From Spirochaetales bacterium (GTDB lineage Bacteria > Spirochaetota > Spirochaetia > DSM-2461), in assembly GCA_016936555.1 (NCBI GenBank), contig JAFGXR010000092.1, forward strand, positions 1-54,207: a stretch of DNA of 54,207 nt, given 5' to 3'. The notes beneath the pieces are model-generated. The model was not told the DNA's origin, made no database searches, and worked only from the letters and a program-made list of their open reading frames with translations. Shown one piece after another: positions 33,537 to 49,092 of the stretch; the first letter of the stretch is position 1; each line of letters opens with the position of its first letter. Position numbers and translations under genes: made by a program.

Positions 33537-33815
33537 ATGGAATGGAGAGCCAGTCATATTCTGGTGGCGGAAAAAGAGAAAGCGAAAGATATTCTCGGAC
33601 AATTGGAAAGCGGAGCCGACTTCGCCGAGCTTGCCATGGAACATTCAACCTGCTCCAGCGCCTTTAAAGGCGGCGATCTGGGGTGGTTCGGTCCCGGGAA
33701 GATGGTTCTGCAGTTCGAGCTGGCAACCAAAAGACTCAAAGAGGTCGGAGATCTGAGTAAGGTCGTCCAGACCCAGTTCGGCTTTCATATTATCAAGCTG
33801 ACGGGGAAGCGATAA
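33537..33815 (+). CDS. Stand-alone parvulin-type peptidyl-prolyl isomerase
   Basis: This 92-aa protein is a single PpiC/rotamase domain without signal peptide, so it should be cytosolic like E. coli PpiC. The domain motifs are ASHILV at the start, FAELAMEHSTCSSAFKGGDLGWFGPGKMV in the middle and VVQTQFGFHIIKLTGKR at the end, including the catalytic-site His residues. GGAGG lies upstream of the ATG. It is transcribed away from nudC. Confidence 0.93.
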   Translation: MEWRASHILVAEKEKAKDILGQLESGADFAELAMEHSTCSSAFKGGDLGWFGPGKMVLQFELATKRLKEVGDLSKVVQTQFGFHIIKLTGKR

Positions 33816-33820
33816 TTCGG

Positions 33821-34741
33821 CTACAGAGCTTTAATACAGTTCCTTCCGCCGTTTTTTGCATTATAGAGAGCCAGATCAATCCTTTTCAGAAACTCTGATG
33901 CCGTTTCTTCTCCTGTGAACCGGCTGACACCGAAACTGGCTGTTACGGAGGCAGGATAGAAACCGCTGTCCGATTGTATTTTTTTTCTGACTCTCTCGGC
34001 GGCTTCCAGGGCCGTGTTCAGTTCTGTATGGGGCAGAAGAACGATAAACTCTTCACCGCCGTATCTGACCAGATAATCTTCTCTCCGGAAGGATTCCATT
34101 AAAATCGCCGCGAATCGCATGAGCACTTTATCGCCGGTTTCATGTCCGAAAGTGTCATTGATTTTTTTAAAGTGATCGATGTCGCACATGATGGCGGACA
34201 GAGACAAAGAATGGCGCTTCGAGGTGTGTATCAGCTCGTCAATCTTGTCTATGAAATGATGCCGGTTATTTAATCCCGTCAACGGGTCGGTGTGAACCAG
34301 TTCTTCGATTCTGTTGTTTGCATTTTTCAATTCCCTGTTTTTATGGCGGATCTCTCTGTTCAGGTTGGCGATTTCGTTAAACTCCATTGCCATGGACGAC
34401 AGCATATCGACCCCTTCCGTCTCTATGAGATGGCCGATAAGAATAAGATGGTCTCTATAGGGGATGAGGTGAATGTTGTAGAGCCTGAGATCCGGCTTTA
34501 TTTTCAGAATCATGATTTCCGGTGAGATGCATCTGTTTTCCCTGCTGATATCTGTTCCGGATAGATCGAAAAAGTGATCGAGGCCTTTTCCGGAATCTTC
34601 GTCCCTCAGATGCACCGCCCGCGAAAACAGTTGATTGCAGTAGTAAAGCATGTCATTTTCGTCAAACAGGCCCAGAAGAGCGTTTTCCAGATTGGATGCC
34701 ATCAGCCGGATCAGTTCCAGTTCATTTTCCGAAAGCGGCAT
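33821..34741 (-). CDS. Diguanylate cyclase (GGEEF) coupled to a B12-binding sensor gene
   Basis: This is a predicted c-di-GMP synthase of 306 aa. The N-terminal 130 residues resemble a PAS-like domain (LENALLGLFDENDMLYYCNQLF) followed by a short coiled coil. The GGDEF domain begins at LVHTDPLTGLNNRHHF and has the active loop RYGGEEF. RRED sits exactly five residues before GGEEF, matching the inhibitory RxxD I-site, so product feedback is expected. Its ATG overlaps the stop of the upstream B12-binding gene (TAATG), implying coupled translation and a shared pathway. Confidence 0.92.
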   Translation of the reverse strand: MPLSENELELIRLMASNLENALLGLFDENDMLYYCNQLFSRAVHLRDEDSGKGLDHFFDLSGTDISRENRCISPEIMILKIKPDLRLYNIHLIPYRDHLILIGHLIETEGVDMLSSMAMEFNEIANLNREIRHKNRELKNANNRIEELVHTDPLTGLNNRHHFIDKIDELIHTSKRHSLSLSAIMCDIDHFKKINDTFGHETGDKVLMRFAAILMESFRREDYLVRYGGEEFIVLLPHTELNTALEAAERVRKKIQSDSGFYPASVTASFGVSRFTGEETASEFLKRIDLALYNAKNGGRNCIKAL

Positions 34742-35910
34742 TATATCTTCCCGTTTTCAATAAGAGATTCAGCATAGGCCAGCGCATCTTCAAAACCTCC
34801 GGCAATATAATCCGCGCCAGTATAATCCACAAGCTCCGGATAATTGATAAACAGATTGCCGCCAAGCATGATTTTGATATCTTGAGTCTCTTCGTTTGCT
34901 CTGATTCTCTGTATCAGCTCCAGTGCTTTGTCGAGGTTAAAAGCCATTGTCACAGATAAACCGAGAAGGGCGGGTTTGAATTTGCCCAGGAGAGTTTCCA
35001 CATCCTTGACCGGCGTATTGGCGCCGAGATAATTCACGTCCCAACCCTGCTCCTCGAAGAGGTTGGCTATCATCCAGGCTCCTATCTCGTGATATTCGTT
35101 TGTGGAGGCGCAAACCAGAATTTTCGGTGCGTTGGGCTGAAGGTCCGGGAGCTCGACTCTGCTGTAATGGGTAGCCAGAATCCGTGTTGCGATGGATGAA
35201 GCGAGATGCTCCTCCGCTACGGATATTCTCCCGTTTTCCCAGAGAACACCGATCTGATACATGGCGGGGGTCAGCATATCTCTGTAAAATCCGATCAGGT
35301 CACCGCCCTCGTTGAAGTAGCTGTCGGTTTTTGTAAACAAAGCCCGTTGAGACCCCGCTATCAGCAGTTCCGTGAACTCATTCTGGTCCTCTGTCAGTTC
35401 GCTATTGGAGCCCATGGATTCATAATCCGCCGATAGTGACCTGTTCCGTTCATCCTGATCGATCATTCTGTCATAGAGTGCCTTAAGTGAATCCAAGGGC
35501 CTTTTCTTTTCCGAAGCGATCTCTTCAATTGTCTCTTTCCAGTAGAGCAGGGCCGTTAAAAAATAATCGAGGGAAAAGCCCTGGTTCCTGTAGGAGTGGT
35601 AAATCCAGGGAAGAGTTTGATCCAGAAGATTCAGATTTCCGGTTTTCATAATTATGGATATGAAAGCAATATGGTTACGGTGATTGTCCAGCATTATCTG
35701 TATATTCTTCCTGCCGCCGATCAGATCCACCATGCGGTTGTCTTCAAATATCTTTTTGTTGACGCTTTCGAGAATAGCATATTTCATTTCATCGTAGAGC
35801 TTTATACTTTCCCGATCAAACTGAATTTTTTCAAGCAAACCGCTTCCCCCCGATGGGATATCGATCCCAAAATCTCTTAAAATAGTAGTATGGAAGGGTT
35901 CAGATTTCAA
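34741..35910 (-). CDS. Cobalamin-binding sensor protein with CarH-like photoreceptor motifs
   Basis: This 389-aa soluble protein has three parts: an all-helical N-terminal domain (about 1-165) that I do not recognise, a four-helix cap (about 175-255), and a B12-binding Rossmann domain (about 260-385). The Rossmann domain has NEYHEIG, matching E/D-x-H-x-x-G, and LGANTP plus MLGGNLF. In the cap, VLWENGRISVAEEHLAS contains W, nine residues, then EH, the W-x9-EH motif that lines the adenosyl group in CarH light sensors. No MerR DNA-binding domain is present. The start is a TTG with no clear Shine-Dalgarno sequence, so the N-terminus is uncertain. Output is probably the adjacent diguanylate cyclase. 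Confidence 0.85.
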   Translation of the reverse strand: MKSEPFHTTILRDFGIDIPSGGSGLLEKIQFDRESIKLYDEMKYAILESVNKKIFEDNRMVDLIGGRKNIQIMLDNHRNHIAFISIIMKTGNLNLLDQTLPWIYHSYRNQGFSLDYFLTALLYWKETIEEIASEKKRPLDSLKALYDRMIDQDERNRSLSADYESMGSNSELTEDQNEFTELLIAGSQRALFTKTDSYFNEGGDLIGFYRDMLTPAMYQIGVLWENGRISVAEEHLASSIATRILATHYSRVELPDLQPNAPKILVCASTNEYHEIGAWMIANLFEEQGWDVNYLGANTPVKDVETLLGKFKPALLGLSVTMAFNLDKALELIQRIRANEETQDIKIMLGGNLFINYPELVDYTGADYIAGGFEDALAYAESLIENGKI

Positions 35911-36309: not shown

Positions 36310-36885
36310 GTGAATAAAACTTTTTTTTGCCTTGCGGTGCTTATGTCGTTCAATTCGATATTTGCCGAAGATCCGTATTTTCTCATAGATGACTTTTCCG
36401 GAGACAGATCCCGATTGAACCGGGCCTGGGAAGGATTCACCGATCAGGTTATGGGTGGTATATCAGAAATCTCCATTTCCCGGATATCAAGGGAAAATGA
36501 GCCCTTTGTCAGGATGTCCGGTAAAGTCTCCCTTGAAAATAACGGAGGATTTATTCAGATCAGGCAAATGCTATCCGGACCTTTCAAGCCCTTTGACGGA
36601 TCGGATTATCAAGGGGTCCGTCTGAAAGTGAGGGGGCGGGGCGAAGGTTACTATATTTTTCTGCGCACAACCGCGACGATTTTTCCCTGGAAGTTCTATA
36701 AGGCCGTTTTTCAGGTTCAGGAAAACTGGACAACTGTGGATCTGCCCTGGAGTTCCTTTTCCGAAGGGGATTATGGAACATTAAGACCTTTCAGACCGGA
36801 TAAACTGAAAAGTCTGGCCATAGTGGCTTACGGAAGAGAATTTCAAGCTCAAATCGATATTTCAGAAATAGGGTTTTACAGATGA
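36310..36885 (+). CDS. CIA30-family secreted protein
   Basis: This 191-aa protein belongs to the CIA30 (complex I intermediate-associated protein 30) family, a galactose-binding-like beta fold. Evidence is FLIDDFSGDRSRLNRAWEGFTDQVMGGIS near the start and GVRLKVRGRGEGYYIFLRT and FRPDKLKSLAIVAYGRE later. In contrast to many homologues it has a signal peptide (NKTFFCLAVLMSFNSIFAED). The start is GTG with a weak ribosome-binding site. It overlaps the next gene by 4 bp (ATGA). Its function in bacteria is not established. Confidence 0.82.
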   Translation: MNKTFFCLAVLMSFNSIFAEDPYFLIDDFSGDRSRLNRAWEGFTDQVMGGISEISISRISRENEPFVRMSGKVSLENNGGFIQIRQMLSGPFKPFDGSDYQGVRLKVRGRGEGYYIFLRTTATIFPWKFYKAVFQVQENWTTVDLPWSSFSEGDYGTLRPFRPDKLKSLAIVAYGREFQAQIDISEIGFYR

Positions 36886-47406: not shown

Positions 47407-49092
47407 GTGGACGACCGGGACAGGACCTATGAATACATAGTCAACACTTCATCGGACTTTATAACACTCATTAATAAAAAATACGAATATGAAGTCGTTA
47501 ACGATTCCTACTGCCGGGTGCTGGGAAAAAAGCGGGAGGAGATCCTCGGGCATCATGTGGCCCGGATCTGGGGGAACTCCCGCTTCGAGGATAAAATCAG
47601 GCTCCATCTGGACAAGTGTTTCTCCGGCAGAGACATTCATTATATAGAGGAATTCGATTTCGGGCCGGAACACAAGTATATGCATGTCTCCTATTATCCC
47701 TACCGGATAGGAGGTGAGATAACCCATGCGCTTGTCTTTTCCCATGATATTTCCAGGATGGGGCAGATGGAGTCTCAGCTCCATAATTTCGAGTTCCGCG
47801 ATTCTGTTACAGGCCTCTTCAATCGTAAATCCCTCGATATCATCCTCGATATGGAGATCGAAAAAGCGAGGCGGAGCCGCGGGGAACCGGATCGGCTGAG
47901 GGCGGTCATTTTCATCTCCATAGCCAATCTCCAGGAGATCAATCTGGCTCACGGCTATGACCGGGGGAATATGCTGCTGGAAAATTCCGGCATCAGAATC
48001 AAGGAATTTCTGCGACAGAGTGATTATGTATTCCGCTATGACGGTCAGGAGCTTGTGGTTCTCCTTTCCAATCTGGCTGGAGAATCGGATTCGGCCAAAG
48101 TCGCGCAGAAACTGTTCGAGAAGATAACCATGCCCTACCGGAGCGATCGCTTTGATATTACGCTCCATTGCCATATGGGCATATCCCTCTATCCGCGGGA
48201 CAGCGCCGACGGTCACGAGCTGATTCAGTCCGCTGCTAAAGCCCTCGGCGAATCAATCGCCACCTCAGTTCCCTTCTGCATATATGACGGGGAGCTGCAC
48301 AACCGGGCCCTCGACAAGCTTCATATGGAAAGTGATTTGTACCGCGCCTTCGAGCATAATCAATTCGAACTCTATTACCAGCCCATAACCACTCCCGAAG
48401 GAAGAATAAAGGGCTGCGAGACTCTGATCCGATGGAATCATCCCGAAAAGGGGTTTATTCGCCCCGATCAATTCATACCCGTAGCCGAAGCCAACGGTCT
48501 GATTACAGCCATCGGAAAATGGATTATCTACCGGACAGTGGAAAAAATCCGCAAATGGAGTGTACCTTATGGCATATACATCTCCATAAATCTATCGGTC
48601 CGCGAGTTTGAGAATGAGGATCTCTTTGATATCCTGGTCCATGCTATGGGGAAAGGGGGGGAGCTTCCCCGGTAATATCTCAAACTGGAAATTACCGAAT
48701 CGGGGGGAATGGAAAAACCGAAACAAACCATAGCCCGTATGAAAAAGCTTAAGGAAGCCGGATTTTCCATTTTCCTCGATGATTTCGGAACAGGGCAATC
48801 CAGCCTGGCTTATCTGAAGGATATTCCCGCCTCGACTCTGAAAATAGATAAATCCTATGTCGATCCAATCGTCGATGATGAAGACAGCCGGTCCTATTTG
48901 AAACTCATTCTCTATCTTGCGGAAAACAGAGGCAAGGAAACGGTTGTGGAAGGTGTCGAGACGGCGGAGCAGCTGGCCATCCTCAAGGAAGCGGGCTGCC
49001 GGGCCATCCAGGGATATTATTTTTCCCGGCCGATCCCGGCCGAGCAGTTCGAGAATCTCCTGATTCATAACACGATTCTTCCCCTTGGCTGA
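47407..49092 (+). pseudogene. PAS-GGDEF-EAL protein gene interrupted by an in-frame TAA
   Basis: The frame from the GTG at 47407 continues in the same phase to 49092, but TAA at 48673-48675 splits it after residue 422, inside the EAL domain. The text across it reads GGELPR, stop, YLKLEITESGG, an otherwise normal EAL segment. Domains in order: PAS (about 1-115), a GGDEF with degenerate loop RYDGQELV (no cyclase activity expected), and EAL with CETLIRW (ETL variant), FLDDFGTGQSSLAYL and ETVVEGVET. The downstream ATG at 48709 has no proper ribosome-binding site. A recent nonsense mutation, readthrough or sequencing error are all possible. Confidence 0.8.

Follow-up and report, generated by a model that had tools for sequence, protein, structure and literature searches.

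Organization of the sensor–cyclase gene pair

The window, the whole 54,207-nucleotide stretch of Spirochaetales DNA analysed here, carries on its minus strand a pair of overlapping genes for a cobalamin-binding protein (the sensor) and a diguanylate cyclase (DGC). The features of the pair are as follows.

34741..35910 (−): photocobilin-like sensor with a photoglobin-type globin at the N-terminus and a cobalamin-binding domain at the C-terminus; translation likely begins at TTG 35838
35398..35826 (−): globin domain, photoglobin/phycobiliprotein-like, with an invariant Trp (W101) and with Asn (N75) in place of the bilin Asp (388-residue numbering, used for all alignment positions)
35173..35382 (−): four-helix cap (B12-binding_2) with W-x9-EH; Pfam residues 177–246, alignment to CarH/CtMerR/SasPcob
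34777..35124 (−): B12-binding domain of Rossmann fold, carrying E-x-H-x-x-G and GxxxP; Pfam residues 263–378, structure–sequence alignment
33821..34741 (−): DGC partner with PAS-like N-terminus, coiled coil and GGDEF domain; GGEEF and RRED I-site
34295..34411 (−): connecting coiled coil in DGC residues 111–149, common to partners of other B12 sensors

The junction reads TAATG, in which the sensor stop codon overlaps the ATG of the DGC gene by one base, and translation of the DGC is probably coupled to the upstream gene. The sensor ORF as listed opens with TTG at 35910, and a second TTG lies 24 codons inside, at 35838. Since a GGGGGGAAG stretch sits just 5′ of the latter and residues 1–24 are disordered in the AlphaFold model, the listed start is probably too early and TTG 35838 is probably the true one. 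The pair is isolated: a convergent plus-strand reading frame, parvulin-like by eye, ends at 33815, and a divergent gene for a CIA30-domain protein starts at 36310 on the sensor side. A promoter and terminator scan around the operon gave nothing above chance. Another GGDEF domain in the window (47797–48252) was ordinary as far as seen.

Pfam identified B12-binding_2 (E 8e-12) and B12-binding (E 3e-21) domains in the sensor and no HTH domain. The cap contains W-x9-EH (GVLW-ENGRISVAE-EH) and the Rossmann domain contains E-x-H-x-x-G (NEYHEIGA). In alignments to solved structures, both motifs and GxxxP align column for column with CarH (5c8a), CtMerR (8jbs), and SasPcob (8j2w). The DGC has a GGDEF domain (Pfam, E 5.8e-46) with GGEEF intact and an intact I-site, RRED (RxxD), five residues upstream; judged by the sequence criteria GG(D/E)EF and RxxD, it is a predicted active diguanylate cyclase. 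Its N-terminus is PAS-like by eye, and some other partners gave weak Pfam PAS matches. An earlier note on this DNA had placed the two motifs in the helical cap and the Rossmann domain of a B12 protein without a DNA-binding domain, whose stop codon overlaps the start of a cyclase with intact GGEEF and I-site. These points, with their coordinates and strand, agree with our results; in its description of the sensor, the B12 motifs stand and an N-terminal globin of ca. 170 residues was overlooked.

Cobalamin-binding domain of the sensor

By sequence, the B12 domain matched CtMerR (8jbs) at E 7e-19, SasPcob (8j2w) at 3e-14, and CarH at 1e-12, compared with 4e-8 for the plain corrinoid protein 1y80. 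The AlphaFold model of the full sensor (pLDDT 91.2, pTM 0.88) matched photocobilins best over residues 170–387 (Z 24.6 and 24.2), followed by methionine synthase and CtMerR (both Z 22), AerR (20.9), and CarH (19). Since methionine synthase ties with CtMerR, the B12 part is inseparable from methionine synthase by structure alone; the sequence motifs distinguish it.

Three of the four motifs of the published light signature are present in the sensor, namely GxxW (GVLW), EH (EEH), and GxxxP (GANTP). The fourth, GxxH, reads NEYH (NxxH). Among 56 full-length sensor sequences (see below), this position is Asn in 28 and Gly in 28, only these two residues having been allowed by the scan pattern. The signature Gly is reported to make its contact through the main chain, and in the same report all four signature proteins responded to light and the one without the signature did not (PMC11796333). 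These features suggest that GxxH may be better widened to [GN]xxH.

CarH/LitR (5c8a–5c8f, 3whp) share W-x9-EH, E-x-H-x-x-G, and GxxxP with the sensor. In contrast to them, the sensor lacks a MerR DNA-binding domain, its N-terminal domain being an additional, globin-like one, and has Glu224 at the position of CarH His132, the second axial histidine of the bis-His light state. The TransRegCarH model scored the sensor at 62 bits against a cut-off of 400. With two defining features missing, the MerR domain and His132, identity as CarH was rejected. CtMerR (8jbs/8jbt), which has the nearest solved B12 domain by sequence, also lacks His132 but has a DNA-binding output and no globin (PMC11796333).

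W-x9-EH occurs in two of the five PF02607 proteins of the genome, the sensor and one HTH_3–B12 protein. The latter (L110:1165–2091, contig C96) is a CarH-like regulator in which a non-MerR DNA-binding domain (HTH_3, XRE-type) is fused to the B12 domain; its gene adjoins one resembling an efflux adaptor. Similar arrangements were seen by eye at L003, L016, L020, and L024.

N-terminal globin domain of the sensor

A single-sequence Pfam search with the first 170 residues gave no match. In the 56-row alignment of the N-terminal part, eight members, the window protein not among them, matched the Pfam Phycobilisome family. Searched against solved structures, the N-terminal profile gave E 1.3e-6 with the globin of SasPcob and 1.9e-5 with allophycocyanin; the unrelated helical protein TIP-99a was also listed (1e-4), which calls for caution over chance matches of helical proteins. 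The AlphaFold2 model of this part alone (pLDDT 94.9) matched smURFP, phycobilisome subunits, and SasPcob (12.1) at Z 12–13 in a stretch of about 120 residues. RsbR and the globin-coupled sensors (Z 11 for the latter) came just behind these bilin globins, and Foldseek E-values were weak (best 0.05). A B12 domain and a photoglobin-type globin, the combination that marks photocobilins, are present in one chain. With this photoglobin-type N-terminus, the sensor has photocobilins rather than CarH as its nearest known relatives; it is a receptor of photocobilin-like type whose globin comes first and whose DGC is in trans.

In SasPcob, Trp296 of the globin forms a hydrogen bond with the corrin (PMC10979010). 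W101 lies at this alignment position and is conserved in 56 of 56 rows, although it was not used in row selection; SasPcob numbering was anchored on its Trp61/Glu71/His72 against the structure alignment (offset 6). Asp270, the biliverdin-binding residue of SasPcob, is replaced by Asn75 in the window protein (Asn in 32 and Asp in 15 of the 56 rows). AbDPcob, counted among the photocobilins, likewise lacks this Asp and has His instead (PMC10979010). Together, W101 and N75 suggest a retained contact between globin and corrin and, as in AbDPcob, a bilin site that has disappeared or become weaker.

Heme oxygenase was found in nine of 50 host genomes of relatives and its presence showed, by eye, no association with Asp at the bilin position. 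A bilin as an obligatory second chromophore is thus unsupported by the distribution of heme oxygenase. Heme-oxygenase-like ORFs of 427–436 aa lie immediately 5′ of a short B12 protein gene at L023 and L025 and two genes 3′ of the sensor gene at L036 (Pfam match for L036 only), which suggests bilin supply by these neighbours at the three loci. At L010, L062, and L085, a photoglobin-type globin is encoded by its own gene near that of a short B12 protein.

Relatives of the sensor and their partner genes

Relatives were collected from GTDB species genomes as the best 80 of 281 loci. The scan pattern, [GN]E[YLH]H[EQ]xG..., fixes G/N270, E271, H273, and G276 by selection, and the further requirement of W-x9-EH with W at 175–275 fixes W223, E233, and H234; G220 was unselected. 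The 56 rows comprise 55 of these 80 loci and the window. The 25 loci left out carry short B12 proteins without globin or incomplete or ambiguous ORFs, or were removed manually (L035, L043, L089, L090, L092, and L099). To call partners, HMMs built for this analysis were applied to a range of −200 to +260 bp, whereas L027, L030, L036, and L055 were assigned from their Pfam matches; gene starts in the loci are mechanical.

The sensor matched at 1e-20 in two of 26 genomes of the family (its own included) and in 23 of 392 of the phylum sample. None of the other three genomes in its genus contained it, and this sparse distribution implies that the sensor is dispensable. The same overlapping gene pair is present in another genus of the family (L002). 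In the tree, the window adjoins L038 with weak support; its host is Thiorhodococcus minor, a purple sulfur bacterium. W-x9-EH, whose absence from close relatives would have spoken against the earlier note, is present in all 56 rows, though these were selected for it; three of 104 loci (L019, L046, and L103) had no ORF passing the pattern.

The survey of relatives, which span many phyla, bore out the gene pair: the next gene encodes a GGDEF protein in 28 of the 56 rows (window included) and a kinase in 20. The other rows have SpoIIE (one), a PAS-Cys protein (two), or no partner under the calling rule above (five). An in-frame partner start lies within 15 nt of the sensor stop in 20/27 GGDEF rows and 17/20 kinase rows, as in the window. 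The 4.7-Mb genome of the window contains 50 GGDEF matches, from which we estimate a chance neighbour rate of ca. 1%; the pairing is not by chance. Partner labels cluster on the tree yet need at least 16 changes, so the partners seem to have been swapped repeatedly in evolution. The earlier note proposed that the cyclase replaces the DNA-binding output of CarH. As a conserved operon partner the cyclase stands, and it is better described as one of several swappable partners.

Some partners had unusual compositions. At L027:6034–6651 and L036:6057–6689, the partners of ca. 205 aa contain PAS, a coil, and a Cys-rich ribbon (CSYCKKIRD) without a Pfam match, and the partner at L030:5399–7756 joins a MEDS domain to GGDEF. 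In Chloroflexales, PAS-coil proteins are encoded on both sides of a short B12 protein in the order PAS-coil-STAS, short B12 protein, PAS-coil (L067, 163–2162; L071, 4071–6127; L072, 4123–6518; L084, 4105–6560). The terminal STAS was found by Pfam in L072 and L084 and by likeness in L067 and L071. In L072 and L084, an ORF of 142–153 aa follows, maybe a split globin, to which the globin profile gave no match.

Coiled coil shared by the partners

Both GGDEF and kinase partners have a coiled coil, about NNELxNxxREL, ahead of the output domain. A model of this coil was trained on 25 of 30 GGDEF partners, with the window DGC excluded; its real tests are therefore the window DGC and the non-GGDEF partners only. 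The window DGC scored 31.0 bits, compared with at most 6.6 bits for 26 other DGC ORFs of the same genome (the 27 ORFs came from 30 loci of the 50 GGDEF matches). Among kinases outside the training set, 28 of 40 reached 15 bits. At this threshold, 72 of 2132 ORFs in the loci were recovered, 58 of which are called partners; the other 14, to the extent traced, adjoin the B12 gene or are fused to it. The strongest part of the case is the comparative evidence for this coil as a putative coupling element common to sensor partners.

Proposed mechanism and alternative explanations

AbDPcob is a published fused B12–DGC light switch, in which AdoCbl binding lowers the cyclase rate and light then raises kcat more than 10-fold; a light-state photocobilin added in trans also activates the isolated cyclase in vitro (PMC10979010). 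The proposal of the earlier note, that light or B12 status controls the cyclase, is thus partly supported by a published case in which a B12 photoreceptor domain switches a DGC by light. SasPcob and AbDPcob resemble the sensor in combining a CarH-type B12 domain with a photoglobin, whose corrin-contacting Trp has its aligned counterpart in W101, and AbDPcob further in controlling a GGDEF domain (PMC10979010). They differ in that their globin is C-terminal (both orders are mentioned in PMC10979010), and the window system has Asn for Asp270 and NxxH for GxxH. The reversed domain order and an unfused DGC, encoded by a separate gene as a conserved partner, set it apart from AbDPcob. In SiaC–SiaD of Pseudomonas aeruginosa, too, the DGC has a distinct partner protein from its own operon: SiaC binds the helical stalk of the DGC SiaD and activates it (PMC8457831). 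SiaD (NF038266) is the top NCBIfam model for the window DGC, from residue 115 on and below the cut-off. Unlike the sensor, SiaC is no B12 protein, and its control is by phosphorylation.

Combining light control as in AbDPcob with stalk binding as in SiaC–SiaD, we infer a two-protein unit in which the AdoCbl state, probably altered by light, would set DGC activity by way of the coil, with a probability of roughly 60%. It draws on the domains, motifs, predicted fold, operon conservation, and common coil obtained here. The soluble sensor, in which a putative adenosylcobalamin-binding domain like those of CarH and photocobilins comes after a photoglobin-type globin, would in the dark be loaded with AdoCbl and keep the stalk of its output protein, the downstream DGC, in one state. 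Green or UV light would remove the adenosyl group, and water or Glu, not a second His, would take the cobalt. Loss of the adenosyl group would rearrange the W/E/H cap and the globin–corrin contact through Trp101. The rearranged sensor would alter its grip on the stalk and thereby shift GGDEF pairing and c-di-GMP output, the light state presumably being the active one, as it is in AbDPcob. It is the signature that points to light, and the set of proteins on which it was tested is small. The main doubt in this best explanation is whether the cell responds to light or to its B12 supply. Against light stand the light-related genes not found in the genome, Asn at both the bilin Asp and the signature Gly, several hosts not known as phototrophs, the sparse distribution of the sensor, and the weak support for its place beside L038.

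The same pair with the same coil coupling might instead respond in the dark to the supply or form of cobalamin (AdoCbl, OH-Cbl, or empty), tying c-di-GMP to B12 status. In AbDPcob, the apo, AdoCbl-dark, and light states are reported to differ in DGC activity (PMC10979010). The genome has two cobalamin riboswitches and a gene for a cobalamin adenosyltransferase, which fit the best explanation as well, and profile searches of it (95% complete) gave no match to any of the three light-related families sought, phytoene/squalene synthase, heme oxygenase, and photolyase. Several sensor-bearing hosts, including Propionispira, Synergistaceae, and Thermotogales, are not known as phototrophs. However, the cap W, E, and H, which are the adenosyl-binding residues of light sensors, are retained, and the four signature proteins cited above all responded to light; we consider a supply signal unlikely, though worth keeping in view.

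That the globin is the main sensor, of bilin, heme, or another ligand, and B12 a structural element or co-signal, is improbable. The globin fold, the frequent His (H79, 48/56 rows), the invariant Trp, and the heme oxygenase genes beside or near L023, L025, and L036 and in nine of 50 hosts are compatible with it. On the other hand, heme oxygenase was not found in the searches of the window genome or of 41 of the 50 hosts, the bilin Asp is replaced by Asn, and by eye no conserved His was seen in the W101 helix, the expected site of a heme ligand. A heme-binding globin is also disfavoured by the profile, which matches photoglobin and phycobiliprotein sequences; heme globins are missing from its list, an absence only.

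We likewise give little credence to co-expression of sensor and DGC without contact, the coil being a mere common dimerization element. Coiled coils are common, and the SiaD match suggests that this coil type may extend beyond B12 partners. Nevertheless, the coil is missing from the 26 other DGC ORFs of the genome, only three of 40 non-partner kinases in the loci reach 15 bits, each beside or fused to a B12 domain, and L094 is a natural fusion of B12 domain, coil, and kinase. Finally, the reading of the B12 protein as an MtaC/MtbC-like corrinoid methyl carrier with the DGC as an unrelated neighbour, suggested by weak matches to NCBIfam corrinoid models (E 2e-11 at best), was rejected as highly improbable, given that all these scores are far under the cut-offs, the corrinoid paralogues of the genome (L106, L107, and L109) lack W-x9-EH, no methyltransferase is among the six neighbouring genes scanned, and signalling partners (GGDEF or kinase) are conserved in 48 of 56 rows.

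Implications for stand-alone photocobilins

We found no description of an unfused sensor/effector pair in the literature searched. The photoglobin paper of Schneider (2022) reportedly contains a gene-neighbourhood survey spanning photoglobin, B12 domains, and varied effectors, and we therefore lay no claim to a first description of the pairing.

The function of stand-alone photocobilins is described as less clear, and protein–protein contacts have been proposed for them (PMC10979010). By recurring across phyla with a common coil and varied outputs, the pair points to concrete natural partners of such proteins and to a putative element that couples the two. More broadly, and with slightly less than even confidence, we propose that free-standing B12-globin photoreceptors may reach their targets through a dedicated, widespread plug-in coiled coil in the product of the next gene. 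Behind this coil, GGDEF, histidine kinase, SpoIIE phosphatase, STAS, and PAS-Cys-ribbon outputs would be exchanged freely. Such systems would be a two-protein counterpart of phytochromes, a large part of which the published signature would have missed through Asn for Gly. If the pair works as proposed, it would tie B12 chemistry to c-di-GMP outside phototrophs and would provide a modular green-light switch.
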